From positions 1-37,044 of the forward strand of contig JAISCE010000091.1 in NCBI GenBank assembly GCA_031265765.1: a stretch of DNA of 37,044 nucleotides. Direction: 5' to 3'. Under the pieces are notes generated by a model. The model searched no databases and was not told the DNA's origin. It saw only the letters and a program-made list of their open reading frames with translations. The DNA is from Azoarcus sp. (GTDB lineage Bacteria > Pseudomonadota > Gammaproteobacteria > Burkholderiales > Rhodocyclaceae). The translations under genes were made by a program, and so were the position numbers. Positions within the stretch are counted from its first letter, which is position 1, and each line of letters begins with the position of its first letter. Positions 2,275-37,044 of the stretch are shown piece by piece.

Positions 2275-2754
2275 TCATTTCAGCACCGTCGAGAAAGCTT
2301 TCAGATCCTTGGGCATATACGCGGTCAATTGGGTTCTTGCAATCAGGACATCGGCCGGATGGTATATCGCACAGGCCATGGTTCCCAACCCGCTATCGTT
2401 GTCGCGTATGACTTCGCGCGCTTCGACCATGAGCGTCGTACCGGCGGCGAACCCATCTACCATACTCGTGAATTTGCGCACCGACACGAGAAAGCCGATC
2501 CTCGGGGATACGTCTTCGGTATACGCGCCCCAACCGATCAAAGCCCCCGCAGCCTGCGCCATATATTCGATGCCGATGTAGGCGGGCACGCGCCCTTCCC
2601 GGCAAAACGGGCTGTTCTCCCGCAAGGCGACCGCGCAAAGGATGCGGTTCGCGCTGGCTTCGATCACGCGATCGAGCAGCAGCGCATAGCCACGATGCGA
2701 CAGATATTTCGCAATGGGTAAATAATCATGCGTGTCACGGGCCTGCCTGTTCAT
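2275..2754 (-). CDS. 3-hydroxyacyl-ACP dehydratase, aryl polyene type (ApeP-like)
   Basis: A 159-residue hotdog-fold protein. The segment GIEYMAQAAGALIGW, with the acidic residue and Gln of FabZ/FabA-like dehydratases, and the ending IARTQLTAYMP match the ApeP family of aryl polyene clusters. It would dehydrate ACP-bound 3-hydroxyacyl intermediates as the conjugated chain grows, probably as a heterocomplex with the second dehydratase domain fused to the AMP ligase (10941-12677). The ATG at 2754 overlaps the ketosynthase stop in ATGA, indicating translational coupling. It is the last intact gene of the operon here; the ketoreductase usually found next is absent because a different sequence begins within 40 bp of its stop. 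Confidence 0.85.
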   Translation of the reverse strand: MNRQARDTHDYLPIAKYLSHRGYALLLDRVIEASANRILCAVALRENSPFCREGRVPAYIGIEYMAQAAGALIGWGAYTEDVSPRIGFLVSVRKFTSMVDGFAAGTTLMVEAREVIRDNDSGLGTMACAIYHPADVLIARTQLTAYMPKDLKAFSTVLK

Positions 2755-3965: not shown

Positions 3966-4524
3966 GCGACTCCAGAATAAGTTCGTACTTCATGGCAAGA
4001 TGCGCAAACGTGACTCTGCCTTGCCAGGGCGATTCCGTTTCATAGTCGATAACAGCCTGCATCATACCGTCCAGGGCGATTTCCCGCCGCAATCCGCCGT
4101 TCGCGCGCGTCTCCGTCACACTCGCGCCCGGCGGCAAGACGCGGCGCAAGTCTTCCAGCGGCGCGGCGATCAGCAGCAGGTCGTTCAGGATGCGCGCGCC
4201 CTCCGGCGCATGTGGCACAAAGCGCCGCTCGGTCAGCGTTTCCCCATCGTAAGCCAGACTGACGAGACGCATGCCGAAAGCCATCATGACGAGTTGCAGA
4301 CGGCCTTCGGCGATTTCCAGCACCGCTTCCGTGGCGCGCTCGCCGCCCGGCCAGCGCATGACGAGCCGTTGTTCCACCGTGCGCTCGCCCAGCGCGGCGG
4401 GTGCAATCCTGAGCGGCTCCGGCGCGATCGTCCCCCGGCCCGGAGCCGGCAACGCGCAGGAGCCCAAACATAGAACGCCGCAAACGTAAAAGAGGCCGGC
4501 GATCAGGCTGCGGCGGACACGCAT
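3955..4524 (-). CDS. DUF3261 family lipoprotein of aryl polyene cluster
   Basis: 189 residues. The ATG at 4524 was chosen because the product then begins with a typical lipoprotein signal: MRVRRSLIAGLFYV followed by a lipobox ending LGSC. The remainder is a beta-rich domain (LVMRWPGGERATEAVLEIAE...LVSLAYDGETLTERRFVP) similar to DUF3261, a family regularly found in aryl polyene operons and related in fold to LolA/LolB-like lipid carriers. It probably helps move the lipidated pigment across the periplasm to the outer membrane, with the LolA-like protein (8201-8830) and the MMPL exporter. Its start lies inside the end of the flavoprotein gene (22-bp overlap). Confidence 0.75.
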   Translation of the reverse strand: MRVRRSLIAGLFYVCGVLCLGSCALPAPGRGTIAPEPLRIAPAALGERTVEQRLVMRWPGGERATEAVLEIAEGRLQLVMMAFGMRLVSLAYDGETLTERRFVPHAPEGARILNDLLLIAAPLEDLRRVLPPGASVTETRANGGLRREIALDGMMQAVIDYETESPWQGRVTFAHLAMKYELILESHEI

Positions 4525-5744
4525 GCCGTTTGCACCGAGGCCAGACGACGCTCCGGCCTGGCGACGAACGGGTTCTTCTCGTCCCAAGCGTAACCGGCCA
4601 GTACCGCGGATACCATGCGCTCGACTTCCGGCGGTTTATTGGGCGCGAAAATGATGTCCTGCAAGCGCCGGTCGTACCATGCGGTCACGAAAGCGCGAAA
4701 TGCCTCGACTCCCACCTTGAGCGGCGCGGCATATTCGCGCTCCCAGTCGACAGGCTCGCCCGCGAGTTGCTTCAAAAGCGCCTTGACCGCCAGATCGGAC
4801 GATTTGAACGCGATGGTGACGCCGGAAGAAAATACGGGATCGAGGAATTCGGTGGTATTGCCCAACAGCGCGAAATTGCGCCCGTACAGCGCCTTGACGT
4901 TGGCGGAATAACCGACGATGTTCCGCACCGGTGTATCCCACACCGCGTTTTTCAGTAATTTGGCAAGATTCGGCGTCCGGCGCACACGGTCGAGCAACTG
5001 TTCCTTGTCGTCGCGCGTATCGAATTGTTCACGCCGCCCCACGACGCCGATCGAGGAGCGCCCATTGGAAAAAGGAATCAACCAGAACCAGACATCGGTT
5101 TCGTCCGGCGGTACCGAAATCAGGATCTTATCGCGGTCGAACGCCGCCTCGGTATTTTGCGCGATGCGGTCTTCGATATGAGTGAAGATGGCCTGCCTCA
5201 CCGGCAATTCCGAGGCAATGTCCAGATCGAGCAGCCGGGGCAGCACTCGCCCGTAACCGCTGGCATCGAGCAGGAACTCGCCGGTAAGCCGGTAATCCTC
5301 GCCGTTTTCCGGATGCACGGTCACGACGGGTTTTTCCCCGCTCACATCGACGGCGGTCACTTCGTGACGGTAGCGGATGTCGGCGCCCTGGCGCGCGGCG
5401 GCATCGGCCAATACCTTGTCGAAAGGCCCGCGCTGCACCTGATAGGTCGTTCCCCAGCCCGGCGTGAATTTCTGGCGAAAATCGAAATGCGCGTACCGGT
5501 TGCCGCAAGCGAAAGCGGCGCCGTTCTTGAATTGAAAACCGGCTTCGATCACATCCTGCAACATCCCGGCGGCCTCGATGTATTCCATGCTTTGCGGCAA
5601 CAGGCTTTCACCGATGACGAAGCGCGGAAAATCCGCCTTCTCCAATATAGTTACGGTACGCCCCGCGCGCCGCAGCAACCCTGCCGCCACGGCGCCGGAC
5701 GGTCCCGCACCGACGATGATGATTTCGCTTTTCTCTTGACGCAT
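4503..5744 (-). CDS. FAD-dependent oxidoreductase, flavin halogenase-like
   Basis: 413 residues. An N-terminal Rossmann motif GAGPSG (12-17) binds FAD; GESLLPQS (45-52) and DASG (160-163) are typical of the tryptophan-halogenase/geranylgeranyl-reductase superfamily. Two features favour a halogenase: Lys73 in GFQFKNGAAF, at the place of the conserved catalytic lysine of carrier-protein-type halogenases, and W219-F-W-L-I-P224, matching the WxWxIP halogenase signature. In an aryl polyene operon it could halogenate the aryl head, as in brominated xanthomonadins. A hydroxylase or reductase role is not excluded. A GGGAG site precedes the ATG. The 115 bp upstream is the only long gap in the operon. 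Confidence 0.8.
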   Translation of the reverse strand: MRQEKSEIIIVGAGPSGAVAAGLLRRAGRTVTILEKADFPRFVIGESLLPQSMEYIEAAGMLQDVIEAGFQFKNGAAFACGNRYAHFDFRQKFTPGWGTTYQVQRGPFDKVLADAAARQGADIRYRHEVTAVDVSGEKPVVTVHPENGEDYRLTGEFLLDASGYGRVLPRLLDLDIASELPVRQAIFTHIEDRIAQNTEAAFDRDKILISVPPDETDVWFWLIPFSNGRSSIGVVGRREQFDTRDDKEQLLDRVRRTPNLAKLLKNAVWDTPVRNIVGYSANVKALYGRNFALLGNTTEFLDPVFSSGVTIAFKSSDLAVKALLKQLAGEPVDWEREYAAPLKVGVEAFRAFVTAWYDRRLQDIIFAPNKPPEVERMVSAVLAGYAWDEKNPFVARPERRLASVQTACVSAAA

Positions 5745-5859
5745 GTTAGGACTCCCTTTGAACGGGTCTAAAGAAACGGGTCGATTTTGAAGCTGACCGA
5801 TTCTGCCTTGGAACGCGACAGAATAAAAGTGGCGGCACGTTCGGCCTCTTGGCCGATAC
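5745..5859 (-). other. 115-bp gap inside the otherwise overlapping operon
   Basis: All other junctions between 2275 and 13816 overlap or lie within 14 bp. This one contains a CGGCC-AAGA-GGCCG hairpin just after the exporter stop, and a short open stretch without start codon whose translation (ERAATFILSRSKAESV...) ends at TAG. It may be the remnant of a lost gene, or just a leader for the flavoprotein gene. I do not recognise the peptide. Confidence 0.3.
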
Positions 5860-8208
5860 TCAGTCCTTACGCAGGAACACCGGCGTCAATAGCCATGACA
5901 ACGCCACTCCCAGCGTAACGGTCAAGCCCAGCGCATGCAGCGCCGGCGTGCCGGAAAGCGCCAGAAGCCCGAAAGATAAAAGCGTCAGCGACGCGGCAAG
6001 CGTGGTCGCCAGAAGCGTATGCGCATGGGCCTGCCGCGCTTGCAGGAAGATGGCGTAATCGATGCCCATGCCGAGCGTGAGCAGCAATGCAAGGATACTC
6101 AACAACTGGAGAGGAACGCTCAGATAGCCCATGATGGCCAGCGTAATGCCGCCCGCCGCCAGGACCGGCGCAACGATGCGCCAGACGCGGCCCTTGAAGA
6201 ACGGGTAAAGCAAAAAGGGAACGAGGAGACAGGCAAGCAAAAGGGTTTTCGTCAGCAATTCCCGATAGCGCGCCATCAATCCGGAAATTTCACCGGTCTG
6301 GTCGATCCATTCCGCCCCGGGAATGGCGGGTTCCCGCGCCGCCAGCCCGGCGAGTTCGTTTGCCGTACCGCGATCGGCCAGACCTTGCAACAGCACCATG
6401 CTCGAATATCGCGGCAAGCCATCGCCGCTTCGGATAGCGCCAAGCCACAGGGCGCGAAACGGCGCGCTGGCGGGATTCGCAAGCCAGGCATCGGCGGTGA
6501 GGAACCCGCCGGAAGCGCCGGAAGATAGTTCCGCGTCCCATCCGGCGGGCAGTTCCAGTTCTTCGCCGACCTGGGCGCGGCTCACCTGCAAACGGTCTTG
6601 CAAGGCGCGGGCCTGCCGCTGCTTTTCCACGGAAGGCAGCCAGCGGCTCGCGGCTTCAAAGCCGCCTATCTTGTTCGCCGCGATGAACGGGCGCAGACGC
6701 TCGACCAAGGCTTCTTCGCTTCGCAGCAAGGCGTCCGGCGTTTCGCCGCCGAGCAGGAACATCTGCGCCGGACTGGGCAGCCGCATGATTTCGGAGACTT
6801 GGCGATGTTCGGCCATCAGCGCGGCATCGCCGCTGAAAAGGCCGCGAATATCGTCATTCGCGCGCAATTGCACAAGCCCCCCCGCCGTGACGGCGGCCAG
6901 GCACAAAGCCAGTCCCCAAGCCTTGCCGGTATTGCGCCAGCGCGGCCAACGCGCGAGCAGGCGCGTCATCGGCGCGGCATTTCCGGGCAATGGCAAGGTC
7001 GCTGGAAGCAGATAAGGGTAAAAAAGCACGACGCTCGCCCAAGCGCCGAAAATCCCGCACACGGCGAAAACCGCCATCTGCTTCAGGCCGGGGAAGGGCG
7101 TCAGGGCCAGCGCCAGATAAGCGAGCGCGGGGGTAATCAATACCATGCCCAAGGTCGGCAGCAACTTGCGGTAGCGTTCCCATACCGGCTCCTCGTTGCC
7201 CAGATGTTGCGCGAACACGAGAATCGCGTAATCGACGGCGACGCCGATCAGGCTGGCGCCGAAGACGAGGGTGACGGCATGTACGCGCTCGAAAAGCAGG
7301 AAGACCGCAAAGAGCGCGGCGAGCGCGCCGGAGACGAGCGAAACCGCAATGAGTTTCAGCGCGCGGGCGCTCTGGAAAACGAGGCCGATCAGGAAAAACG
7401 TCCCGGCCAGCGACCCCAGGCCGATGAGGCGCATTTCATTTTCGGCCTGACGGGCCGCCGCCGCCGCGTGCAACACGACGCCGGCGCGCAGGAAGCGCGC
7501 TTGCGGGTCGATGGCATGGACGCGATCCCGCGCTTCGCCGAGGCGGGCAAGCAGCTTTTGCTGGAAATCGGCATCGAAGACGCTTCGCGGCAAAGCATAA
7601 GTCAGCGCGGCGTAACGCCGCCCGCCCTGTTCGACCATCAATTCGCCATTGAAAGGGCGTAAAGGCGTGGCCTCGCCCAGACCTTGCAGCCAATTGCCGA
7701 AAAACCCGTATGGATCGTCCCGCCATGGCACATTGCCCGGCGTAAACAGCGCATAGGCAAAATTCAGGGCGCGCGCCGTGGCGGCTTCCGGCGATGCCGC
7801 GGCGAGCCATTCGCGGTCGGCGGCGGTCAACAAACCTTGCCGGTACGGAAAATAGAAATCGCCGGGGAAATCCGCGGCAGTCCCCTGCGCCGTCAACCCG
7901 AGGCCGGAAAGCGCCTCGCGCACCCCGGCGGCGGCCTGGCGCGTCGCGGCCTCGTCGCGGGCGGAAACCAGCAGGGCCAACTGTCTTTCGCCCTGGGCGG
8001 CAAGCGCCTTCAAGGCGGCTTCGAGCGCCGGGCGACGTTCGTCCGTCGGAAGCAGGGCCAGCAAATCGGTGTCGATGCGCTCGAAACGACCTTGCCATCC
8101 GGCCATCAAGAATCCGGCCGCCCCCAGCAAAAAAGCCAGCCAAAGCCCGGCAAGCAGCCTGTGCGCGCGATTGCGGCCCAATGGCGATGGCGGGTTCGGA
8201 TTACTCAA
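5860..8208 (-). CDS. MMPL/RND-family exporter of aryl polyene cluster (ApeM-like)
   Basis: 782 residues with the two-half MMPL layout: one N-terminal membrane helix (about 17-38), a large periplasmic domain, a block of about five helices (about 260-420), a second helix followed by another large loop, and a C-terminal helix block (about 650-780). The first loop contains the phrase DLLALLPTDERRPA, common in this exporter group. By context it transports the lipid-linked pigment or its precursor from the inner membrane into the periplasm, feeding the LolA-like carrier encoded just upstream, whose gene end overlaps this start by 8 bp. Predicted inner-membrane location. Confidence 0.85.
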   Translation of the reverse strand: MSNPNPPSPLGRNRAHRLLAGLWLAFLLGAAGFLMAGWQGRFERIDTDLLALLPTDERRPALEAALKALAAQGERQLALLVSARDEAATRQAAAGVREALSGLGLTAQGTAADFPGDFYFPYRQGLLTAADREWLAAASPEAATARALNFAYALFTPGNVPWRDDPYGFFGNWLQGLGEATPLRPFNGELMVEQGGRRYAALTYALPRSVFDADFQQKLLARLGEARDRVHAIDPQARFLRAGVVLHAAAAARQAENEMRLIGLGSLAGTFFLIGLVFQSARALKLIAVSLVSGALAALFAVFLLFERVHAVTLVFGASLIGVAVDYAILVFAQHLGNEEPVWERYRKLLPTLGMVLITPALAYLALALTPFPGLKQMAVFAVCGIFGAWASVVLFYPYLLPATLPLPGNAAPMTRLLARWPRWRNTGKAWGLALCLAAVTAGGLVQLRANDDIRGLFSGDAALMAEHRQVSEIMRLPSPAQMFLLGGETPDALLRSEEALVERLRPFIAANKIGGFEAASRWLPSVEKQRQARALQDRLQVSRAQVGEELELPAGWDAELSSGASGGFLTADAWLANPASAPFRALWLGAIRSGDGLPRYSSMVLLQGLADRGTANELAGLAAREPAIPGAEWIDQTGEISGLMARYRELLTKTLLLACLLVPFLLYPFFKGRVWRIVAPVLAAGGITLAIMGYLSVPLQLLSILALLLTLGMGIDYAIFLQARQAHAHTLLATTLAASLTLLSFGLLALSGTPALHALGLTVTLGVALSWLLTPVFLRKD

Positions 8209-8830
8209 AGCGTTTCCTGACTTCAGCGGAGACTTCCCCCGCGTGCGTCTGCGCCCTGAATTCGATGCGGGTCACGTCGCCCGCGGCATTCCTGATTTCA
8301 ACCTGTTCGATGTCGTGTGTGCCAGTCAGCGAGAGCGTCTCGATCAGGCGGGCGAGATTGGCGTCCCTGGGCGTGAAATCGAGTCGCCATCTACCGTTTT
8401 CCATTTTGCCGTCGTAACTGAAACTTTGCGCGAGCGTCTCGAACTCCCCCGCAAGCACGCCGAACAGAATGCTGTTGATGATGCCGACCACGGGTTCCTT
8501 GTCGGCGGAAAGGCGCACGACCGCGCCGCCATCGTTCGTTTGCAGAATCTCGTTTTTCGTCAGGCGCATCGTTTGCGCGATGGGCGCGATATTCTCCCAG
8601 ATCACGCCGGCATCGCGGACAACCAGGAAACGCCCGGTCGAAACGAGCGGCTTTTTGATCTGCACAAGATGGCGGGTCTGTGAAAACTCGCCCTGCGTCA
8701 CCGGCGCCGGCACGAGGCGGGCGCGAACCTCCGCAAGCAAATCGGCGGCGGACAGCGGCAAGGCAAAACACAGGATGGACGCGGCGAAAAGAGATTTCAG
8801 CCATGAGAACTTCAACGGCGCTGCCTTCAT
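8201..8830 (-). CDS. LolA-like outer-membrane lipoprotein carrier (ApeL-like)
   Basis: 209 residues with a clear signal peptide (FAASILCFALPLSAA, cleavage near residue 29) and no lipobox. The mature part (QGEFSQTRHLVQIKKPLVSTGRF, then IWENIAP) matches the LolA-like family of aryl polyene and related lipid-export clusters. LolA proteins are periplasmic chaperones that shield acyl chains; here the cargo is presumably the aryl polyene lipid. The ATG at 8830 overlaps the thioesterase stop in ATGA. No deviation from family length. Confidence 0.88.
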   Translation of the reverse strand: MKAAPLKFSWLKSLFAASILCFALPLSAADLLAEVRARLVPAPVTQGEFSQTRHLVQIKKPLVSTGRFLVVRDAGVIWENIAPIAQTMRLTKNEILQTNDGGAVVRLSADKEPVVGIINSILFGVLAGEFETLAQSFSYDGKMENGRWRLDFTPRDANLARLIETLSLTGTHDIEQVEIRNAAGDVTRIEFRAQTHAGEVSAEVRKRFE

Positions 8831-9252
8831 TTCACCCCCAGTTTTCCAGCGAGGACATCAGGACTGAGCAAGCGCATTTCTCCCGTTCGCATATCTACCG
8901 CCACCTGTATGGTATAGCCGCGCGTGAGGCGCATGCCGCTTTCGAGATCGCGGATCACATACTCGATCTTGAGACGGTTCTCCCACTCCGCGATGAGAGC
9001 TTCGACCCTAATACGCTGGCGATAACGGAGCGGCTGCGCATAACGGATGTGAAGTTCGATGACCGGCCAGGCATAACCGGACGCCCGCATCTCCGGATAG
9101 TCGTAATCAATGGATTGCAAGAGCGCCGCGCGGGCAATCTCGAAATAGCGCACGTAATGCCCGTGCCAGCATATTTCCAGCGGATCGATGTCGTGAAACG
9201 GAATCTGCAATTCCACGCTTTCACGCCAGCGGCTTTGTTGTCGATTACTCAT
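8827..9252 (-). CDS. 4HBT-type acyl thioesterase (ApeK-like)
   Basis: 141 residues from the ATG at 9252, which overlaps the acyltransferase stop in ATGA; longer frames have no support. It has the single hotdog domain of 4-hydroxybenzoyl-CoA thioesterases, with the signature HDIDPLEICWHGHYVRYFE and the likely catalytic Asp23. In the pathway it would release polyene or aryl intermediates from ACP or CoA, or act as an editing enzyme. Cytoplasmic. All neighbours belong to the same operon. Confidence 0.87.
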   Translation of the reverse strand: MSNRQQSRWRESVELQIPFHDIDPLEICWHGHYVRYFEIARAALLQSIDYDYPEMRASGYAWPVIELHIRYAQPLRYRQRIRVEALIAEWENRLKIEYVIRDLESGMRLTRGYTIQVAVDMRTGEMRLLSPDVLAGKLGVK

Positions 9253-10196
9253 AGCGCGGAATCCGGACGTCCGGCGCGATCTTGCCAGAACGGAAAGAAA
9301 TTGAACCATTGCAGGGGATGCTCGATGCACATTTCGGTCAGCGCGGCAACATAAGCATCGAGATACGGACGAATGGCCGCTCCGCGCGCGCGCCGCGGCA
9401 ACACGATGCGATCGGCGAGCCGCCGCACCGTGACGGAAACCCCCTCACGGAACCGGGCGCTGAACATCATGAATACAGGGCAGGCCAGCACGGCCCCAAG
9501 AACATATGGCCCTATCGGAAATTGCGCATCCTTGCCGAGAAAGGGCGAGACCATCATGGCGCTGCTGCCCGGCGCGACCGGAACGCGATCCCCCGTGATG
9601 ACCACGACCCCTCCCGCATCAATGCGCTCCGACAGCAGCATGGCCGTGGCAGCATCGATACTACCAACCTGGATCATGTCGATTTCCAGCGCCGGGTTCA
9701 GCGAACTCAATATCTGATTGAAACGCCCGGCATGGCGAGTATGCACCAAAAGCGTAAACGGTATATGGGCGTAACGACTGCACCCCAACCGGTAAAGGGA
9801 CATGAGACTCCCGATATGCGTCGCCACGACGAGCACCCCGTGTCCTTCATCCAGCATACGATCCAGGGATTCCAGACCGTTGGAACTGGATAGCATCCCG
9901 GCATTTTCCCGCGCATCCACCGCAGTGAGTTGTTCGAGCATCGCTTCGCCGAAGTTCATGAAATGCCGAAAACCGTTCCGCCAATTCGGCGCTGGCGTTG
10001 CACCGCCGCTCGTCTCATGCAGGCAGGCGAGATATTCGAGGGAAGCGCGGCGGGCAACGCCCTTGCTCAGGAAAAACCACGGCATGATCGCATAAAGCAG
10101 CGCGCGGAAAAGCCAGATGCCGCCATGCCGGTAAACCCAGTGCAAAAAACGTATTCCCCCAAGAAAACCGGCCTCGCCGACCCGCGTCCAGTGCAT
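9249..10196 (-). CDS. LPLAT/HtrB-like acyltransferase of aryl polyene cluster
   Basis: 315 residues, similar to lauroyl/myristoyl acyltransferases of lipid A synthesis (LPLAT superfamily), with an N-terminal amphipathic or membrane-associated region (RALLYAIMPWFFLS). It probably attaches the aryl polyene or fatty acyl chain to a glyco- or phospholipid anchor at the inner membrane. An oddity is that the catalytic HX4(D/E) motif reads H127-IGSL-M132, so the acidic partner is absent. The gene starts one base after the stop of the GT2 gene; in other clusters a GT2 and an acyltransferase domain are fused in one protein. Confidence 0.8.
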   Translation of the reverse strand: MHWTRVGEAGFLGGIRFLHWVYRHGGIWLFRALLYAIMPWFFLSKGVARRASLEYLACLHETSGGATPAPNWRNGFRHFMNFGEAMLEQLTAVDARENAGMLSSSNGLESLDRMLDEGHGVLVVATHIGSLMSLYRLGCSRYAHIPFTLLVHTRHAGRFNQILSSLNPALEIDMIQVGSIDAATAMLLSERIDAGGVVVITGDRVPVAPGSSAMMVSPFLGKDAQFPIGPYVLGAVLACPVFMMFSARFREGVSVTVRRLADRIVLPRRARGAAIRPYLDAYVAALTEMCIEHPLQWFNFFPFWQDRAGRPDSAL

Positions 10197-10197
10197 G

Positions 10198-10944
10198 TCA
10201 GTTCACGGTACGAAAATGGCGGGACACCAGCCGAGGCAAGCGGCTGAGCATGCCGAAAAAAAGCCTGGCATGCATTGCGGAGATACGCAGATTGTCGCGC
10301 AGGGGCCGAAAATGCGATATCCCGCCCCGCGGATAGCTCACCGCAACCGGCAAGTTGATGACCGGCACGCCTTCCCAGTCCAGCCGCACCAGGATTTCGG
10401 TATCGAAATCCATGCGCCGGGCGTGGGCCAGCGCGGGCAAAAGCGGCATCACCGCTGCAAGCGGATACAGGCGGAAGCCGCACATCGAATCGACGATGCG
10501 CCTCGACAGCGTATTGATCCACACCCAAGCATGCGTGATGTAGCGCGCATACTTCCGCCCTTTGGGAACGCTGGCGTCGTACTGCGGGCAACCGGCGACG
10601 ACGGCATCGGGATGCCGCGCCGAGACGATCAGGAACCGGGGTACGGCTTCGAGATCGTGCTGGCCGTCGGCATCCACCTGCAAGGCGTGGCTCGCGCCCA
10701 ACTCGTGCGCATGGCGAAATCCCGCCAGCACCGCCGCCCCTTTGCCGCGGTTTTCCGGGTGACGCAAAAGAACGACCGGCAGCCCGGACGGCCCGGACGC
10801 GAGCGCGTCCAGAACACGGGCCGTGACCGCATCGCTGCCGTCGTCGACCAGGATGACCGGCAGTCCATGGCCATGCAAGGCGCAAACGACGCCCCCCACG
10901 GTTCCGCCGTGATTGAACACCGGAACGACGGCAACGGTCTTCAC
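10198..10944 (-). CDS. Family 2 glycosyltransferase of aryl polyene cluster
   Basis: 248 residues from a GTG at 10944 that overlaps the ligase stop in GTGA, so translation is coupled; the open frame extends further upstream only as an overlap with the ligase. GT-A fold motifs are present: the DDGS at 34-37 and DADGQHD at 91-97 (metal- and sugar-nucleotide-binding), with ENRGKGAA between, similar to dolichyl-phosphate-mannose/glucose transferases. It may add a sugar to the lipid anchor of the pigment. Cytoplasmic face of the inner membrane. Confidence 0.85.
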   Translation of the reverse strand: MKTVAVVPVFNHGGTVGGVVCALHGHGLPVILVDDGSDAVTARVLDALASGPSGLPVVLLRHPENRGKGAAVLAGFRHAHELGASHALQVDADGQHDLEAVPRFLIVSARHPDAVVAGCPQYDASVPKGRKYARYITHAWVWINTLSRRIVDSMCGFRLYPLAAVMPLLPALAHARRMDFDTEILVRLDWEGVPVINLPVAVSYPRGGISHFRPLRDNLRISAMHARLFFGMLSRLPRLVSRHFRTVN

Positions 10945-12677
10945 GTCGCCGCTTCCACACTGCCGCCCGCCTGGTCTCTCGGCACGAAAACACCATGCGA
11001 GCAGGTTTTCCCGTTCAATGTGAAAACGAATGCAAGCTCCCTGCCGTGGCGCTTCGAGACGAGCGTCAGCTGGAGCGCGTCGCCGGGCCGAACGATATTC
11101 AGGAACTTCAGGCCCGACACATTGGCCGCCGCGGCATCGAACCCAAAATACAGATGCGCGAAATGCGCCGCCCAATCGAGTTGCACCACGCCGGGCAACA
11201 GCGGAAAACCGGGGAAATGCCCCTCGAACCAGACGAGATCGCGCGGTATCTGGAGTTGTAAACGCACGGTGTTTTTGCCGTGCTCGTCCGGCAGGCGCTG
11301 GGCGCGCGGCATCAGGGAAACGAACAGCCGTTCCAGATCTTGCCGGGTCGTCTTGCCCATTTCGTTGCAGGGCAGCGCCTCCACATAGCGCCAGCGGCGC
11401 GGCAAGGCCAAGGGATCGAGCCTGCCGCGCAAGCGCCTGCGCAGCGCCGAATCGAAATCCGCTTTTTTCTTCTCCCCGTATTCCAGGCAGCCTTCCGGCG
11501 TCAGGACGACGACCGCGCCCAGGATGACGCGATCGCCTTCCTGTTCATGGGGCAACGGCACGACGCGCACGCTTGCCACTTCCGGCAGGCGGGCGAGTTC
11601 CTGCTCGACCTGGGTCAAGGAAATTCTTTTTTCGCCGATTTTGACCAGCCGGTCTGCACGCCCCTGCAATTCCAGGCCGCGCCCGTCCAGGCGGGCGATG
11701 TCGCCCGATAAAAAACCGCTTTCCATTTCGGCATCGGCAAGCAGCGGCGAATGAATGCGCAACCGGGAAGTCCCTTCTTCCAAGCTCAGACGCACGCCGG
11801 AGAAAGCCTGCCATGGCGAGTTCCCTTGGCGGCGAGCGACAGCGCCGGTTTCCGTGCTGCCGTATATCTCGAAAAGCGGCGCCTGCAAGTACGCCGCGCC
11901 GCTGGCCGCGATACCCGCGGCCAGCGGACTGCCCGCCGATGTCGCCATCCGCCAGCGCACGCCCGCCGCCGCGGGCGCATCCGCCAGATACTTCAGGAAA
12001 GTCGGCGCACTGATGAAAACGTAATCCGCGGGCGGCAGCCGTCCGAGGTCTTCGGGGTAGCGGAGCTTCTCCACGACGAAGGGATGCGCACCCACCAGCG
12101 ACCACAACACGAAAAACGGCAAACCATACATATGCTGATGCGGCACGCTGGTGACGAAACGGGTATCGGCCGTCAATTCGTCGCCGAACGCTTCCTCGAA
12201 CATTTGCGCTTCGGCGCGCAATTGCCTCAGGTCTTTTTCTATCAGAGCCGGCTTGCCGGTGGAGCCGGAAGTGAAAAGCACGACGCCGGGCCGTCCACGG
12301 TCGGCCCAGGACGCCGGCGCGGCGACATGCCATGCCGTCAGGACGTTCGACGAACTGCCGCTCCCGACCCAAGGCATCGCCAGCGCCTCTCTCGTCGCGG
12401 GCAAATCGTCGCCCGGCAGGACAGCCGTGAGGCCGAGCGACCACGTCGCCAGCAGCCAAACCGCAAAACGGTAAACATCCGGCTCGAAAAGCACGATGCC
12501 GGGCCGCCCGGCCACTTCGCCGGGCGCAAGTCCGGCCAGCGTGCGCCGGGCCGCGTCGAGGTCGAGATGGAAGGCCGCGCGTCCGACGGGATTCCCGCCG
12601 CGATAAGCCACGGGCCGTCCGTCGCCGTCGGGCAAGGCCCAATAGCGCGCAAGACTTTGCAGGGACGGCTCAGGCAT
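10941..12677 (-). CDS. AMP-dependent acyl/aryl ligase fused to hotdog dehydratase
   Basis: 578 residues with two enzymes. Residues 1-455 are an adenylate-forming ligase: P-loop TSGSTGKP (136-143), IYGSTETG (271-278), the GDIARLDGRG hinge region and Lys441 in NEMGKTTR. It would activate the aryl starter acid (for example 4-hydroxybenzoate or a cinnamate) and load it on ACP. Residues about 470-575 form a FabZ-like domain with catalytic His487 in WFEGHFPGFPLLPG, equivalent to the separate second dehydratase (ApeI) of the Escherichia coli ape cluster. The fusion couples loading and dehydration on one chain. Its start overlaps the membrane-protein gene by 8 bp. Confidence 0.88.
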   Translation of the reverse strand: MPEPSLQSLARYWALPDGDGRPVAYRGGNPVGRAAFHLDLDAARRTLAGLAPGEVAGRPGIVLFEPDVYRFAVWLLATWSLGLTAVLPGDDLPATREALAMPWVGSGSSSNVLTAWHVAAPASWADRGRPGVVLFTSGSTGKPALIEKDLRQLRAEAQMFEEAFGDELTADTRFVTSVPHQHMYGLPFFVLWSLVGAHPFVVEKLRYPEDLGRLPPADYVFISAPTFLKYLADAPAAAGVRWRMATSAGSPLAAGIAASGAAYLQAPLFEIYGSTETGAVARRQGNSPWQAFSGVRLSLEEGTSRLRIHSPLLADAEMESGFLSGDIARLDGRGLELQGRADRLVKIGEKRISLTQVEQELARLPEVASVRVVPLPHEQEGDRVILGAVVVLTPEGCLEYGEKKKADFDSALRRRLRGRLDPLALPRRWRYVEALPCNEMGKTTRQDLERLFVSLMPRAQRLPDEHGKNTVRLQLQIPRDLVWFEGHFPGFPLLPGVVQLDWAAHFAHLYFGFDAAAANVSGLKFLNIVRPGDALQLTLVSKRHGRELAFVFTLNGKTCSHGVFVPRDQAGGSVEAAT

Positions 12678-13956: not shown

Positions 13957-15186
13957 CTACTCCCTCGCCGTCCGGCCCGTCAATTCGGCGAAGACCCGGC
14001 ACAGACGGTCGATCCGCCCATCCCAACTATTGGTTTCGGCATACCGCCGGATGGCTGCGCGATCCCATGGCTGCGACAGCGCCCGGTCAAGCGCCGCTTC
14101 GAGCGCCAGCGGCTCACCGAAAGGAATCAACTCACCCAATTCCGGGCGGCAAACGGTTTCGCGGCTGACGCCTGCCTCGGTCGTCACCACCGGCAAGCCG
14201 CAAGCCATGGCCTGGAGAAAGACATTGCCCCCGCTCCCGGCATGCGTGGCAAGCACGAATACATCGGCGGCGGACAAAGGCGCGGACAGTTCATTCAGCG
14301 GCACATCGTCGAGAAAACGCACCGCATCGCCCAAACCCAGACGCACCGCATGGGCCCTGAGCGCAGTGCCGTCATGCCCGGCCAGCGCGCCCGCCCCGGC
14401 GACCAGATACGCCAGCCCCGGCCAGCGCCGGACGAGCGAAGGCAAAACCTCGATGACCCGGTGGCAGCCCTTCTCATCGACCGGCCAGCCCGCCGATATC
14501 AGCACCGGCGCTTCCGGCGTCAATCCAAGCGCCGCTCGCGCCTTGCCGCGATCGCGCGGGCGGAAGCGTTCGACATCGACGCCGTCGCCGATCGTCTCGG
14601 CCCGCTCGCCCGGCGTCCCCAGCCCGACGGCAAGCTGGCGCAAGCCCTCGCTGACGGCAAACACCTTCGTCGCGCCCGTGAGCGCCTCGCGCAGCCTCGA
14701 AGCGAGGCGCGAATTCTGCGCCTGCCGCGCCTCGTCGCCGCGCAGGCTTATCGTCACCGGCACCCCCAGCCTGCGCCCGAGCAATACGGCGGCATAGCCG
14801 TCCGGATAGGCGAAATGCGCATCGATCACATCGAGATGCCCGGCATGGCGCATCGCGGCAAAGCGGCGATACGCCGCCATCGCCATCGTCCACCCATCGC
14901 AACACCTGAGCACTCCCGGCACGGACAAAAAACGCGGATACCACACCGGAATGCCCTGCTGCTCCTCATATTCCGGCGCGCCGGGGCGAAAATGCGGCTT
15001 GTCCAGATATTCCTTTATCGCATCCTGCCACGGCATCCAGGGCGTCGGCGCCACGACGAACAACGGCAAACGGCGAGCGACGCGAAACATGCGTTCGCGG
15101 ATGGACAGCCCCAAACCCGGCTGTACGCTACTCGGAAACAGGCTGCTCAATACCCCGATATACGGGCCTTTCGACAACTCGGCCAT
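13957..15186 (-). CDS. Family 4 glycosyltransferase, exopolysaccharide locus
   Basis: 409 residues, start at ATG 15186 with GGAG five bases upstream. GT-B fold: the N-terminal domain includes DVIDAHFAYPDGYAAVLLGRRLGVPVT split by loops, and the C-terminal domain has ISAGWPVDEKGCHRVIEVLP and AMACGLPVVTTEAGVSRE. It would transfer a sugar from a nucleotide donor in assembly of a surface polysaccharide; location next to an XrtA-type amidotransferase and deacetylase supports this. The EX7E catalytic motif is not intact: its two positions are Gly317 and Gln325. It lies 140 bp upstream of the pigment operon on the same strand, and could be transcribed with it. Confidence 0.82.
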   Translation of the reverse strand: MAELSKGPYIGVLSSLFPSSVQPGLGLSIRERMFRVARRLPLFVVAPTPWMPWQDAIKEYLDKPHFRPGAPEYEEQQGIPVWYPRFLSVPGVLRCCDGWTMAMAAYRRFAAMRHAGHLDVIDAHFAYPDGYAAVLLGRRLGVPVTISLRGDEARQAQNSRLASRLREALTGATKVFAVSEGLRQLAVGLGTPGERAETIGDGVDVERFRPRDRGKARAALGLTPEAPVLISAGWPVDEKGCHRVIEVLPSLVRRWPGLAYLVAGAGALAGHDGTALRAHAVRLGLGDAVRFLDDVPLNELSAPLSAADVFVLATHAGSGGNVFLQAMACGLPVVTTEAGVSRETVCRPELGELIPFGEPLALEAALDRALSQPWDRAAIRRYAETNSWDGRIDRLCRVFAELTGRTARE

Positions 15187-15288
15187 ACTCGCTCCGTCCC
15201 CCGGTCAGGCTTCCCGGGCGGCAATACTGTTTTGTTTCGACCGCTGCGCCCGCCCCGGACACGCGGGCTGCGCCCTCCCAAACGGTCG

Positions 15289-15318
15289 AGAATATGCAGG
15301 ACGCGCGCAATCGGTCAA
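15289..15318 (-). promoter_or_regulatory. Weak candidate promoter for the GT4 gene
   Basis: TTGACC (15318-15313, overlapping the amidotransferase stop) and TATTCT (15294-15289) are separated by 18 bp. The match is partial and read-through from the amidotransferase gene is an equally good explanation. Confidence 0.25.
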
Positions 15319-17222
15319 GCAGAACTTACCGGCTGACCGGCGCGGCGCAGAAACGCCTCGAACATCAACAAGGCCCACAGCGGGGCGCTATGGTCGCGCA
15401 CGCCAAGCAAATGGGTATCCACCAAATGCTGCAAATAACCGGCATCGAAGATGCCCGTGGCCGCAAGGGTATCGCCCAGGACGATGTCCCGCATCCGCCT
15501 TTTGAGCGAACCGCGAAGCCAGCGGTCGAACGGTACATCGAACGCCCTCCCCGTCTGGTACAGCACATTGCGGGGAAGCTGCGACGCCATGGCTTGCTTG
15601 AGCAGGAAGCGCCCTTCCTTTCCCCGCAGCTTGAATGCCGAAGGCAGGGCGGCAAGCCACTCGACAAGCCCATGATCGAGCAAGGGCGCGCGCACTTCCA
15701 GCGAATGCGCCATGCTGGCGCGGTCGACGCGAGTATTGACGCGGCCCGCCAGGCAAGTCTTGATATCCAGATATTGAATGAGCGCCAGCGGATCGGCGGT
15801 CTGCGCGCGCCGGACATGCCTGCGGAAAACCTCGATCGCCTCGTAACCGGCGAGATCGCGGCGGAAGGATGCGGAAAAAAGGCGGCGTCGCATATCGTCG
15901 TGCAGCAGGGAAACCGAATGGAAATACGCCTCGACCGTATTCTTCGCCAATGCCTGGAAAACAGCCTGGCCGCGAAAAACGCGGGGCGCCCAGCCCGCTG
16001 CCGAATACACTCCCCCGAGAAGCCCGAAAACCGCCTGGCGCACCCCCGCGGGCATCGCCGCGCGCAGGCGCTCTCCCATCAAATGCAGGCGATAACGACG
16101 ATGGCCGGCAAGAACCTCATCGCCGCCGATGCCCGAAAGCGCCACCGTCATCCGCTTGCGCGCCAATTCGCACAGGCGATAAAACGGAATGGCCGCGCTA
16201 TCGGCAAAAGGCTCGTCGTACAGACCGGAAAGCATATCGGCGAAATCCAAATCGTCCAGCCGCGCCGTCCCGCTGGAATGATTGCTGCGGTAAAGCCCGG
16301 CGACCGCGCCCGCCATGCCGGTTTCCTTGAATCCGGGATCGTCGAAAACGATCGAGCACGTATCGACCGGCTTCTCCGAAAGCCCCGCCATGGCGGCAAG
16401 CACCGCGCTGGAATCGGCATCGCCTGTCAACAACGCGCCCAGCGGCGCTTCCGCCCCCAGGCGCAGCCTCACAGCCTCACGCAAACGTCCGCCGAACTCG
16501 GCGGCGGCTTCCTCGAACCCGATCGGACTGTCGAGCGAAAACCGGACATCCCAATACTCGCGCGGCAGCGGAAGCGCCACGCCACGCCGGATGCAGATAG
16601 CATGGCCGGGCGGCAACTTCCACGCCGCCAGGAAAATCGTGCGCGGATCGGGCACATAGCCGAAAGCGAAATACTCCTCCACCGCGCGCGAATCGATCCG
16701 CCGCTCGAAGCCGGGGTGCCGCATCAAGGCTTTGAGCTCGGAGCCGAAAATCACGCTGCCGTCCCCGAGCGCCGCATAATACAAAGGCTTGGCGCCGAGG
16801 CGGTCGCGGGCAAGAAAAAGCGTCTGCCGGGCGCGATCCCACAACGCAAAAGCGAACATACCGCGGAAATGCCCGACGCAGGACTCGCCCCAGGCCTCCC
16901 AGGCATGGATGATGACTTCGGTATCGCTCCTGGTGCGGAACACATGGCCAAGCGCGGCCAGTTCGGATGCCAGAGCCTGGAAATTATAGATCTCGCCATC
17001 GAAAACCAGCGCCACCGAGCCGTCCTCGTTGAGCAAGGGCTGCTGCCCGGCGGCAAGGTCGACGACCGGCAAGCGCCGATGGCCGAGCGCAAGCCCCGGC
17101 TCCAGATGAAGCCTGCCGTCGCCCGGCCCGCGGTGGCGCAGGGACTCGTTCATCCCCCGCGCCAGGGCGCAATCGAAATCGCGTTGGCCCTGGACATCGA
17201 AAAGACCGACGATACCGCTCAT
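15315..17222 (-). CDS. XrtA-type asparagine synthase-like amidotransferase, probably inactive catalytic sites
   Basis: 635 residues, full length for the exosortase-A-associated amidotransferase family: an N-terminal class II glutaminase domain (1-~190) and a C-terminal asparagine-synthetase domain (~230-600). AGAGGGA precedes the ATG. Catalytic residues are lost: the Cys2 nucleophile is Ser (MSGIVG, codon AGC), the oxyanion NGEIYN is D75-GEIYN, the PP-loop SGGxDS is TGDADS (266-271), and the acidic residue of SG(D/E)GGDE is Ile366. Arg50 and the SDTEV motif remain. The frame is intact, so it may be a pseudoenzyme with a binding or structural role. Neighbouring GT4 and deacetylase genes place it in exopolysaccharide synthesis. 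Confidence 0.88.
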   Translation of the reverse strand: MSGIVGLFDVQGQRDFDCALARGMNESLRHRGPGDGRLHLEPGLALGHRRLPVVDLAAGQQPLLNEDGSVALVFDGEIYNFQALASELAALGHVFRTRSDTEVIIHAWEAWGESCVGHFRGMFAFALWDRARQTLFLARDRLGAKPLYYAALGDGSVIFGSELKALMRHPGFERRIDSRAVEEYFAFGYVPDPRTIFLAAWKLPPGHAICIRRGVALPLPREYWDVRFSLDSPIGFEEAAAEFGGRLREAVRLRLGAEAPLGALLTGDADSSAVLAAMAGLSEKPVDTCSIVFDDPGFKETGMAGAVAGLYRSNHSSGTARLDDLDFADMLSGLYDEPFADSAAIPFYRLCELARKRMTVALSGIGGDEVLAGHRRYRLHLMGERLRAAMPAGVRQAVFGLLGGVYSAAGWAPRVFRGQAVFQALAKNTVEAYFHSVSLLHDDMRRRLFSASFRRDLAGYEAIEVFRRHVRRAQTADPLALIQYLDIKTCLAGRVNTRVDRASMAHSLEVRAPLLDHGLVEWLAALPSAFKLRGKEGRFLLKQAMASQLPRNVLYQTGRAFDVPFDRWLRGSLKRRMRDIVLGDTLAATGIFDAGYLQHLVDTHLLGVRDHSAPLWALLMFEAFLRRAGQPVSSA

Positions 17223-17441
17223 GTTGAATCCCTCTGTTCTGGATGCCGCTTCCGCCAGGGCAAGCGCGCTTCATTTTTTCCTTCCGGCGCGGGGGAGAAA
17301 AAACGCCCCGTCCATGCTTGGGAGCATGCTGGATTTTCGGAAGCATATTGGAATTTTCCCGGTCTGCGAGCGCCGCGCGCGGCAAAAACGCATGGACGCC
17401 ACACATTGCCGCATCCGCCCCGCGCGCCGAAGCGGCAACCG
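17223..17441 (-). other. Intergenic spacer with a 6-bp stem-loop
   Basis: The 219 bp between the deacetylase stop and the amidotransferase start hold no gene. CATGCT-TGGG-AGCATG (17313-17328) can form a hairpin; on the minus strand a GC stretch and six T residues follow about ten bases later, so a weak terminator for the deacetylase gene is possible but not convincing. Confidence 0.3.
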
Positions 17442-18305
17442 TCACAAAATATCCCGGAACACGTCGTCCATCCGCCCCCAGCGGAAATCGTCGAGCAACA
17501 GACGCAAGCGGCCTTCGGTACGCGACAGATTGAAGTAATGATTCAAGCGGGTCCTGAACGGCGCTTCCCATACCCGAGGCTGATCCGGGTCGATTTCCCA
17601 AGCATGGAAATAAAACACCGCGGCGCGGGCATCGCGGCGGTTGATCCGGGCGATCTGCCAGCGCGACATCTCATACGGCATCCACCGGAACCAGACGCCG
17701 CCGCCAGCCGGCCAATTGCGCCCGCCCCAACGCACGGTGGCGGGCGGAATCTCGATCAGGCCCGAAGGCAGGCGCCAGGGGAAACGCGGCGCGTCCGGCA
17801 TGCCATGCTGGCCGTGCCTGACCGGATAAACCGACGAACTGTACCGGTACCCCGCCTCGGCGATGATATCGTGCGCCCACGGATTGCCCGCCCCGATGGA
17901 AAAATCCGGCGCGCGATAGCCCAACACAGGCTTGCCGGAAAAATCTTCGAGCAAAGCCTTGGCGCGGACGATGTCGGTGCGGAAAGCCTTGGGCGTCATC
18001 GCGCCGACATGGCCATGACCATACCCGTGACAGGCCAGTTCATGGCCATCGCCGACGATTCGCTGCACCAGCGACGGATAACGGGTAGCGACCCATCCAA
18101 GTACAAAAAACGTGGCAGCCACGCCGCGTCTTGCAAGAAAATCGAGAATACGGTCGACATTCTGCTCGACCCGGCACGGCGTCGACGCCCATGTCTCGTG
18201 CGGAAAATACGCCGCCAAGGCCGAAACCTGAAAATAGTCCTCGACATTGATAGTGAGCGCATTGCGCAAAATGCCCAGGCCGGGCGTGGAAACGAGTCTG
18301 TTCAT
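17442..18305 (-). CDS. Polysaccharide deacetylase, XrtA/PEP-CTERM locus type
   Basis: 287 residues, NodB-type carbohydrate esterase with the extra C-terminal DUF3473 region of the exosortase-locus family (PEP-CTERM locus polysaccharide deacetylase). Motifs: INVEDYF with Asp23 (motif 1), metal-binding His93 and His97 in CHGYGHGH, Arg131 in GYRAPDFS, and FYFHAWEIDPDQPR near the C-terminus. All expected catalytic positions appear present. It would remove N-acetyl groups from a growing exopolysaccharide. AAGGAG lies eleven bases before the ATG. No signal peptide, so a cytoplasmic or membrane-face role is likely. Confidence 0.9.
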   Translation of the reverse strand: MNRLVSTPGLGILRNALTINVEDYFQVSALAAYFPHETWASTPCRVEQNVDRILDFLARRGVAATFFVLGWVATRYPSLVQRIVGDGHELACHGYGHGHVGAMTPKAFRTDIVRAKALLEDFSGKPVLGYRAPDFSIGAGNPWAHDIIAEAGYRYSSSVYPVRHGQHGMPDAPRFPWRLPSGLIEIPPATVRWGGRNWPAGGGVWFRWMPYEMSRWQIARINRRDARAAVFYFHAWEIDPDQPRVWEAPFRTRLNHYFNLSRTEGRLRLLLDDFRWGRMDDVFRDIL

Positions 18306-18556: not shown

Positions 18557-18576
18557 AAACCGTGGCGTAAACGTGA

Positions 18577-18600
18577 CGGCGGAGGCCGAAGCCCCCGCCG
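18577..18600 (-). terminator. Strong GC hairpin with UUCG loop at 3' end of ssrA
   Basis: On the minus strand CGGCGGGGGC pairs with GCCTCCGCCG over ten positions (one G-U) around TTCG. It closes the ssrA transcript. The following bases (TCACGTTTACG) lack a real U-run, so it may act as the 3'-end stabilising or processing stem of the coding RNA rather than a classical terminator. Confidence 0.55.
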
Positions 18601-18760
18601 GCTGTCTTGGGTTACAAGGCTTCAGCGGCCCCGGCAATCAGCTTAAGCAGCGATTGCAAAACGCTCATCGTTGGCGTTTATGGATTTGCGCGGATTACGT
18701 CCGTCGCCTCTCGGGTTGCCTGCGCACCTTCACTCGCCCTGTCGAAACCGGTACATCCCC
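18601..18760 (-). ncRNA. ssrA: tmRNA coding piece with tag ORF (18675-18643)
   Basis: Starts GGGGATG at 18760, followed by the D-loop-like GGTTTCGACAGGG region. The resume codon GCC is at 18675-18673; the ORF GCC AAC GAT GAG CGT TTT (then GCA ATC GCT GCT TAA) encodes ANDERFAIAA and ends at 18643. GCAATC within the tag pairs with GATTGC after the stop, forming helix P5. Downstream GCCGG/CCGGC segments can form a pseudoknot. Confidence 0.9.
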
Positions 18761-18790
18761 ACCCAAACACACGCAACACTCATGCGCTTG

Positions 18791-18855
18791 GGTGGAGATG
18801 AGGGGAGTCGAACCCCTGTCCAGAACGCCTCCGGGTTGCCGGGATTACAACCATG
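18791..18855 (-). ncRNA. ssrA: tmRNA acceptor piece
   Basis: About 65 nt. Contains the P2 3' strand CGTTCTG, the T-arm AGGGG-TTCGACT-CCCCT and the 3' acceptor strand CATCTCC followed by discriminator A and CC. The next genomic base is C, so the terminal A of CCA is not encoded and must be added after processing. The 5' end is inferred from the promoter at 18862-18890. Confidence 0.85.
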
Positions 18856-18861
18856 GAGCGG

Positions 18862-18890
18862 ATTATGAGGGCAAGCGCGGCCCGATTCAA
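18862..18890 (-). promoter_or_regulatory. Sigma70 promoter of ssrA
   Basis: Minus-strand TTGAAT (18890-18885) and CATAAT (18867-18862) are separated by exactly 17 bp. The predicted start near 18855 lies just before the acceptor piece, giving a short leader. This placement independently supports the permuted order. Confidence 0.65.
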
Positions 18891-19083: not shown

Positions 19084-19089
19084 TTGATC

Positions 19090-19545
19090 GTGCGGAGCAT
19101 GACCATTGAACAACTACGCACCGCGAACGATGCCGGCGGAGTGGCGGGCGTGACCCTGAAAGGACGGGGTGGGGTGTTTCTCGTGCAGATTGCCACGCGT
19201 AGCGGCGGCGACGCCGTACTGGCGAAAGCCCGCAGCAGTGACCCGCGCCGCTTCGGTAACCCCATTGCCGCCCTGAACGTGCTGCGCGACGTGGGCATTA
19301 CCGTCGGCCAATTCGATGCCAGCGAGTGGAACCCGGCTGAAAAGGAAGACTCCTTCGGCAATCGCGGGCGCGCCGAGGCGATGCGCAAGGCGCACCAGGC
19401 CGCTGCTTACATGAAATGGCTTGCCGCTGGGATTCAAGAGGCCATCGACGACCCTCGGCCAAGCGTCCCGCACGATGAAGTCATGGCGCGCATGGTGGCC
19501 AACCTTGCGAAGCCACGAATCAGGGGCGTAGCGAAGGACGATTGA
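19090..19545 (+). CDS. Antitoxin of ParE-type module with long N-terminal domain
   Basis: 151 residues from the GTG at 19090, chosen for its ideal AAGGAG spacing. The C-terminal part (EAMRKAHQAAAYMKWLAAGI, then DDPRPSVPHDEVMARM) has the pattern of RelB/PaaA-like antitoxins that wrap ParE/RelE toxins. The N-terminal ~90 residues (GVTLKGRGGVFLVQIATRSG, then GNPIAALNVLRDVGITVGQF) form an additional domain I do not recognise with certainty; it probably supplies DNA binding for autoregulation. The stop is directly followed by the toxin GTG, so both are translated together. It is longer than common antitoxins (70-100 residues). Confidence 0.72.
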   Translation: MRSMTIEQLRTANDAGGVAGVTLKGRGGVFLVQIATRSGGDAVLAKARSSDPRRFGNPIAALNVLRDVGITVGQFDASEWNPAEKEDSFGNRGRAEAMRKAHQAAAYMKWLAAGIQEAIDDPRPSVPHDEVMARMVANLAKPRIRGVAKDD

Positions 19546-19851
19546 GTGGCGGCAAAAACCCCTTACCGCATCGTCTGGCGTCCGATGGCCGAGGCCGATC
19601 TGGAGAACATTGTCGACTACATTGCCCAGGACGATCCGATCAAGGCCGAGGCGTTCGGCAAGGAACTGCGCGACAAAACCTTGCTGCTCACGCGGCATCC
19701 AAGGATGGGCCGCGACGGTCGACCAGGTCTGCCCGCCTTCGTGCGCGAACTGGTTGCTCATCGGCATTACATCATGTTCTACCGTGTGCTGGACGAGGCG
19801 CGCACCGTGGAAATTTTGCGAGTGAAACACACGGCGCAACAAATACCGTGA
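19546..19851 (+). CDS. ParE/RelE-superfamily toxin
   Basis: 101 residues with a GTG start immediately after the antitoxin TGA; AAGGA lies eight bases upstream. The fold signature is clear: YRIVWRPMAEADLENIVDYI at the N-terminus, HPRMGRDGRPGLPAFVREL in the middle and HYIMFYRVLDEARTVEILRVKH at the end, matching ParE-type proteins (gyrase poisons) more than RelE mRNA interferases. The HPRMGR motif is typical of ParE. A hairpin (19921-19947, CGGCGT/ACGCCG plus TCCG/CGGA) without U-run follows in the gap before the convergent permease gene. Confidence 0.87.
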   Translation: MAAKTPYRIVWRPMAEADLENIVDYIAQDDPIKAEAFGKELRDKTLLLTRHPRMGRDGRPGLPAFVRELVAHRHYIMFYRVLDEARTVEILRVKHTAQQIP

Positions 19852-27273: not shown

Positions 27274-31512
<4,239 letters not shown>

Positions 31513-31559
31513 GTATTACTCCATCCAGGACATGCGTTGTGCGATGCAATGTCGCCGGT

Positions 31560-35876
<4,317 letters not shown>

Positions 35877-36469: not shown

Positions 36470-36529
36470 GATTGCTTGCTCCTAAATATATATTCAGTGA
36501 TTGGATCGGTTCGTCCGTCGATAACGGCG

Positions 36530-37027: not shown

Positions 37028-37044
37028 GGGTCCTTTCTCCATCT

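Follow-up and report, generated by a model that had tools for sequence, protein, structure and literature searches.

A Permuted Two-Piece tmRNA Gene of the Betaproteobacterial Type Is the Only ssrA Detected in a Rhodocyclaceae Draft Genome, and Many of Its Relatives Share a Covarying Intervening-Sequence Helix

Anatomy and Identity of the ssrA Locus

The window, i.e., the whole stretch of 37,044 nucleotides that was analyzed, carries on its minus strand an ssrA gene in permuted order, whereby the acceptor half lies upstream of the coding half and an intervening sequence (IVS) is placed between the two, as seen by sequence reading and with the Rfam model RF01850 (Table 1). In a covariance-model search, nucleotides 18904-18574 of the minus strand matched RF01850 (beta_tmRNA) over all 331/331 model positions with 282.9 bits (E = 3.6e-91), the cut-off of this model being 84 bits. 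The model RF04321 (tmRNA_permuted) yielded 166.5 bits at the same locus (E = 9.7e-34; cut-off 47), and ARAGORN independently called a permuted tmRNA at 18882-18552 with the tag ANDERFAIAA. An earlier note, made from the sequence alone, had proposed a permuted two-piece gene here and had recommended a search with the permuted betaproteobacterial model; the full-length RF01850 match at 282.9 bits and the permuted call by ARAGORN confirm that proposal. The piece coordinates given there (18855-18791, a 30-nt gap, and 18760 onward) agree with our sequence reading, and the tag was recovered by both sequence reading and ARAGORN. Two other statements did not hold. The gene was said to end at 18577, whereas the 3′ end of the coding RNA varies by method and is put at 18574 by Rfam and at 18552 by ARAGORN; and it was said to be easily missed by annotation tools, whereas ARAGORN and Rfam each detect it straightaway.

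Table 1. Features of the permuted ssrA locus, in positions of the window.
Feature	Position	Strand	Basis
Sigma70-type promoter, TTGAAT-17-CATAAT; transcription start predicted near 18855	18862..18890	-	Promoter scan, conservation; start inferred
Acceptor RNA: 3′ side of P2, T-arm, 3′ acceptor strand CATCTCC, A73, C74, C75	18791..18855	-	Sequence reading, RF01850
Predicted precursor hairpin: 18800-18781 pairs with 18773-18754, 20 bp, 7-nt loop	18754..18800	-	Folding; covariation in relatives
IVS, 30 nt, predicted to be removed	18761..18790	-	Sequence reading, RF01850, relatives
Coding RNA: 5′ acceptor strand GGGGATG, tRNA-like 5′ part, P5, tag frame, pseudoknot region	18574..18760	-	Sequence reading, RF01850
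Tag reading frame ANDERFAIAA + TAA, resume codon GCC	18643..18675	-	Sequence reading, ARAGORN
GC-rich hairpin of 9 bp at the 3′ end of the coding RNA, without T-run	18578..18599	-	RF01850, folding

The acceptor stem of 7 bp is complete: GGGGATG (18760-18754) pairs fully with CATCTCC (18800-18794), as the earlier note had claimed, and both the G3-U70 pair and A73 are present, which are alanine identity elements. The acceptor piece finishes in CTCCACC. Since the gene reads ACCC at this point, CCA is not encoded, and the IVS starts with C at the position of the CCA-A. At the 3′ end of the gene, a scan of the locus for intrinsic terminators found no terminator-like site.

In its order, its acceptor and T-arm part, P2, P5, tag region, promoter-like boxes in the 5′ flank, and ACC followed by a base other than A, the gene resembles the betaproteobacterial two-piece tmRNA, the RF01850 type, which Sharkady and Williams reportedly described in 2004. 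It differs in the end of the tag, which is AIAA here, whereas ALAA is commoner: among 124 distinct permuted genes, 19 carry ANDERFAIAA and 56 have an ALAA ending. A further difference concerns the structure line of RF01850, in which only the 7-bp acceptor stem is paired and the IVS is left unpaired, whereas the fold predicted here continues for 13 bp. The alphaproteobacterial two-piece tmRNA (RF01849, Caulobacter type) shares the permuted order, and some of its IVSs likewise pair with the ACC end; unlike the present gene, it falls into a separate clade (8 sequences) and more often encodes CCA (14/18 parsed). With the standard one-piece ssrA of Rhodocyclaceae (RF00023) the gene shares the expected function and the tRNA-like end. 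The standard form, unlike the permuted one, is a single RNA of ~360-378 nt, usually located at gyrA-ompA-ubiG-gph (21/28 loci), and its shared parts are 66-68% identical to those of the permuted form in the one genus compared.

A promoter scan found one promoter-like site at the locus, compared to a mean of 0.3 in shuffled sequences. The sigma70 promoter with 17-bp spacing that had been noticed before the acceptor half is thus present, and it is conserved in relatives: the hexamer closest to TATAAT (at least 4/6 matches) ends 8-9 nt before GGTTGT in 108/110 of their upstream regions. Because of this conserved spacing, transcription would start about where the acceptor piece starts, whose 5′ end may be the primary transcript end.

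On the left, the locus is neighbored by XrtA/PEP-CTERM exopolysaccharide genes on the minus strand (13957-18305), with an XrtA amidotransferase (TIGR03108, 901.5 bits) and an XrtA polysaccharide deacetylase (TIGR03006, 403.2 bits), next to which a glycosyltransferase is encoded. A toxin-antitoxin pair, consisting of a PaaA2/RelB-like antitoxin and a ParE toxin, adjoins ssrA on the plus strand (19084-19851); no such pair was found at the ssrA flanks of the tested relatives, save for a 40% ParE match at locus L171. Among the flank proteins scanned, a subset of the ORFs, there was no integrase that would fit a genomic island, the flanks being the XrtA-type gene and the ParE-type pair. When the flanking proteins were tested against loci of the genus, most of which carry 1.5-kb flanks only, two other loci matched, and these by an ABC permease only. 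Further away on the minus strand, ketoacyl synthase, FAD-dependent halogenase-like, exporter-like, and AMP-binding/ApeI-type proteins are encoded at 2751-12677, which looks like an aryl-polyene-type lipid cluster (the name is deduced from this content), and rpoC, rpoB, and the gene of ribosomal protein L10 occupy the right end of the window (27274-37042).

Copy Number and Partner Genes in the Genome

The genome was searched as a draft of 2.58 Mb in 98 contigs (98% complete). RF01850 matched once in the whole genome. The best match of the standard model RF00023 elsewhere in the draft reached 28.3 bits at a cut-off of 47, and none reached E 1e-30; at the permuted locus itself the best RF00023 match was 25.7 bits, which is likewise below the cut-off, so that the locus does not read as a gene in normal order. 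A standard-order ssrA elsewhere in the assembled contigs, for which the earlier note had advised a search, is ruled out by these sub-threshold matches (at most 28.3 bits vs. 47), although a second copy could lie in a gap of the draft. At the usual address of the standard gene, adjoining ubiG, the genome has retained matches to the amidohydrolase, ompA, and ubiG, and neither the RF01850 nor the RF00023 genome search found an ssrA there. The same genome encodes smpB (PF01668, 191.4 bits) and two PF01743 proteins above the cut-off (CCA-enzyme/poly(A)-polymerase family).

Overall, we consider this locus to be a functional permuted ssrA of the betaproteobacterial type and the sole detected ssrA of this Rhodocyclaceae draft, with a probability of about 97%. 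This judgment draws on the anatomy, the model match, the single detected copy, the promoter, the IVS helix described below, and smpB/PF01743, all observed here; processing, charging, and tagging are expected from the family.

Distribution of Permuted and Standard Genes

The genus of the source probably represents termite-gut Rhodocyclaceae. Of its 21 genomes, 19 exceed the RF01850 cut-off (17 at model positions 1-331, one at 49-331, and one in two partial pieces), and the remaining two, which are 66% and 82% complete, gave no RF01850 match. In order to describe the family, we used a sample of 297 Rhodocyclaceae genomes, whereby permuted genes were accepted at E ≤ 1e-15 and standard genes at E ≤ 1e-30. 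A permuted gene was present in 114/297 genomes and a standard gene in 159/297, with two genomes (G032 and G167) having both and 26 having neither at these limits. By genus (68 in total, given here by working labels), the permuted form occurs in 34, the standard form in 44, and both in 13. In 11 of these 13 genera (g7, g42, g45, g52, g54, g56, g69, g77, g83, g86, and g91) the two forms occur in different species, and g13 and g43 count as both-form genera through the double genomes only. Misbinning is not the general cause of the mixed genera because single-contig genomes occur on both sides in g69 (permuted: G179; standard: G088 and G287) and in g86 (permuted: G154 and G316; standard: G189 and G261).

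In the wider samples, the permuted model matched 15/349 genomes of the order, 8 of the 15 belonging to Rhodocyclaceae, and 112/349 genomes of the phylum. A DNA-pattern search returned 57 stretches from named genomes; all that carry a family or genus name belong to Rhodocyclaceae or its genera (Thauera, Azonexus, Dechloromonas, and ‘Azoarcus’ MAGs), and the others are labeled just Betaproteobacteria or Proteobacteria. In the 2025 tmRNA database, 11,946 of 97,179 unique sequences are permuted (PMC11915505). The assertion that such genes are rare is therefore not borne out, given 114/297 genomes in the family and the database figure, nor does the present gene extend the distribution, as had been thought possible, since named Thauera, Azonexus, and Dechloromonas genomes already show the form. 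The gene is ordinary for Rhodocyclaceae, a fresh example of a known betaproteobacterial type.

Several individual loci may be mentioned. In the double genomes G032 and G167, standard and permuted ssrA either coexist or were brought together by misbinning; in G032 (loci L199 and L200) the standard gene occupies the usual address, and a contig of 11.9 kb carries the permuted one. The permuted copies L108 and L129 from HGW-Betaproteobacteria MAGs are without part of the tag region, perhaps by assembly deletions, and locus L274 from the Burkholderiales-binned genome G477 (6% contamination) is a permuted tmRNA that on visual inspection resembles the alphaproteobacterial type.

The IVS Helix and Its Relation to the Encoded CCA

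The predicted precursor hairpin consists of the 7 acceptor base pairs and 13 bp from A73 inward, with a folding energy of -42.0 kcal/mol (z = -6.22), and 0/200 shuffled sequences were as stable. The pairs beyond the acceptor stem begin with A73-C74-C75, followed by the first IVS base, i.e., the CCA-A position. Among the 124 distinct permuted genes, the IVS measures 5-7 nt in 23 and 24-50 nt in 101. The constancy of A73-C74-C75 in this collection is not evidence, as the pattern by which the genes were collected fixes CTCCACC and GG[N]TTCGAC. In addition, 57 loci had been selected by a pattern in which the CCA-A position had to be C, and the counts were redone without the rows known only from them, which left an unbiased set of 99 genes. 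All 23 short-IVS genes in this set encode CCA (23/23). In the 76 long-IVS genes the CCA-A position is C in 39, T in 24, A in 7, and G in 6.

Across 70 distinct arm pairs from long-IVS genes, the eight positions inward from the CCA-A position are paired to 91.4%, compared to 28.6-56.2% in slid controls, and there are 78 compensatory cells vs. 6-24 in six slid versions and a mean of 27.6 in shuffles, of which 0/1000 reach 78. The CCA-A position and its IVS partner themselves form C-G in 27, T-A in 22, G-C in 6, and A-T in 2 arm pairs, with 13 non-pairs. When each 93% cluster is represented by a single row (32 long genes), pairing is 89.5% and there are 37 compensatory cells vs. a shuffle mean of 12.9 (0/1000).

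A helix was scored as flush with the acceptor stem when it had at least 8/11 pairs. By this rule, the unbiased 99 genes comprise 67 with helix and without CCA, 4 with helix and CCA, 26 with CCA and no helix, and 2 with neither. Thus, 67/71 family genes with a flush helix lack an encoded CCA, and conversely the helix is present in almost every gene that does not encode CCA (67/69 in the family and 4/4 in the phylum sample). Four genes were scored as having neither in a separate count (two of which remain in the unbiased 99), and by eye their IVS forms a hairpin that a small loop separates from the acceptor stem. Ten fetched loci that the collecting pattern had missed were judged by eye only. 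They include six with short IVS and CCA, one with a long helix and no CCA (L231), two long ones with CCA (L234 and L260), and a rearranged one (L265). Locus L266 is truncated.

Among the permuted genes of the phylum sample (18/28 parsed), 14 encode CCA and 9 have a flush helix, 5 of the latter with encoded CCA and 4 without. In other families of the order (7/7 parsed), 7/7 encode CCA and 4 have a flush helix. For two loci of these wider sets, L272 and L273, the parsing register was one base off, and folds show the helix there. A general rule by which the helix means absence of CCA is ruled out by the 5/9 phylum-sample helix genes and the 4/4 from other families of the order that encode CCA. 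Because helix and CCA co-occur outside Rhodocyclaceae, their exclusion is not general; the two are compatible, and the helix alone does not force CCA loss. Outside the 2004 and 2009 papers on the subject, no title or abstract opening among those listed in literature searches links permuted tmRNA to an IVS helix, to RNase III, or to Rhodocyclaceae.

Exchange Between Permuted and Standard Forms

Flanking ORFs were compared for 30 permuted and 29 standard loci from mixed genera, with the standard locus L167 as reference. The gyrA-ompA-ubiG-gph neighborhood of L167 is common to 21/28 other standard loci and to 4/30 permuted loci, the latter lying at the standard address in the same orientation (L166 and L157) or inverted (L163 and L164). 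The permuted g45 gene L166 (entered in the comparison as L088) is 97.9% identical to the permuted gene L081 of genus g83 and 65.9-68.1% identical, over 182 columns, to two standard genes of its own genus. De novo re-permutation inside g45 is ruled out by this difference (97.9% vs. 66-68%). The location of the g45 gene at the standard address, together with its 97.9% identity to the g83 gene, points to replacement by transfer. At least in g45, the sequence comparison thus points to the permuted form having moved by transfer, or to old coexistence, rather than to a fresh permutation.

A FastTree tree of the shared parts was calculated from 116 distinct permuted, 53 standard, and 8 alphaproteobacterial sequences; 5/130 permuted loci and 4 standard ones were left out at extraction. 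L157 of g7, whose contig ends early, is not in the tree. All distinct permuted sequences (116/116) fall into one clade without standard or alphaproteobacterial members (local support 0.937), and the branch that parts permuted and alphaproteobacterial sequences from standard ones has a support of 0.704. For permuted genes in general, a tandem-duplication origin and independent origins have been reviewed (PMC3978253).

Proposed Maturation and Alternative Explanations

For the present gene, we propose a single transcript that would begin about at the start of the acceptor piece. Acceptor half and tag half would be held together by the acceptor stem and P2. The IVS would extend the acceptor stem into a long hairpin, from which it would be cut out by nucleases, with RNase P generating the 5′ end of the coding RNA and another nuclease plus trimming the 3′ end of the acceptor RNA. 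That permuted transcripts are cut in two is described for the class as a whole (PMC11915505; PMC3985003). Because the gene reads ACCC, the CCA end would be completed by nucleotidyltransferase; that tmRNA genes do not always encode CCA at this position is also noted in the tmRNA database paper (PMC11915505), and the permuted tmRNA of Hodgkinia is reported to have an IVS of 129 nt that contains complementary sequences and to receive CCA on both pieces (PMC6581868). In E. coli, two leader bases that pair with the 3′ RCCA lower the kcat/Km of RNase P, which must unwind the extended stem, and the leader dinucleotide GU is inhibitory, yet frequent among precursors (PMC9433436). The last two IVS bases are GU in 63/76 long-class genes. 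RNase P would probably act on a duplex that is unwound or already cut, for which RNase III cleavage within the 20-bp duplex is possible, before the CCA enzyme finishes the tail. The two RNAs would then remain base-paired, be charged with alanine (G3-U70), and act with SmpB on stalled ribosomes, adding ANDERFAIAA.

It might also be that the IVS is retained, in which case a single RNA, joined by the hairpin, would be made in place of two. The folding of IVS and acceptor stem into one 20-bp hairpin would agree with this, as would the slowing of E. coli RNase P by leader pairing with the 3′ RCCA. Yet an uncut molecule would have no free 3′ end for charging, two-piece maturation is what the class descriptions cited above state for permuted genes, and E. 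coli RNase P routinely handles such pairing (PMC9433436), so that we regard retention as highly improbable. The chance is just as slight that the locus is a decayed or silent copy and that rescue depends on an undetected ssrA or on other rescue factors: nothing positive speaks for it beyond an assembly in 98 contigs, and it is opposed by the intact elements, the tag frame with its stop, the complete acceptor pairs, and the conserved promoter, as well as by the failure to find a second ssrA and the retention of smpB.

A more serious alternative, though still an unlikely one, is that the IVS helix simply reflects common descent and plays no part in maturation. Kinship alone yields some pairing, as the sampled permuted genes form one clade, and 28/99 genes are without a flush helix by the rule of at least 8/11 pairs. 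This is difficult to reconcile with the compensatory cells, which outnumber those of shuffled and slid versions and persist when each 93% cluster is reduced to one row (37 vs. 12.9), and with the flush helices in 9/18 parsed phylum-sample genes and 4/7 genes from other families of the order.

Implications for the Family

Taken together, the data may be read in terms of two maturation classes of two-piece precursors in Rhodocyclaceae. In the first, selection would keep the IVS complementary to A73-C74-C75 and to the CCA-A position, which covaries rather than encodes A, and the CCA enzyme would finish the tail once the long duplex is open or cleaved; in the second, the IVS has 5-7 nt, which is too short for such a helix, and the gene encodes CCA. 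Through transfer, moreover, permuted and standard ssrA would take each other's place among species of a single genus, in some cases at an unchanged address. For this joint reading, we see the odds as even. If it is true, two-piece and one-piece tmRNA would be exchangeable parts. The family offers related species, some of them with single-contig genomes (g69 and g86), that differ in having one-piece or two-piece tmRNA, in which it could be studied whether the two-piece form changes anything and how it is exchanged, and the covarying IVS helix would provide a defined precursor substrate for the order in which RNase P, RNase III, RNase Z, and the CCA enzyme act.
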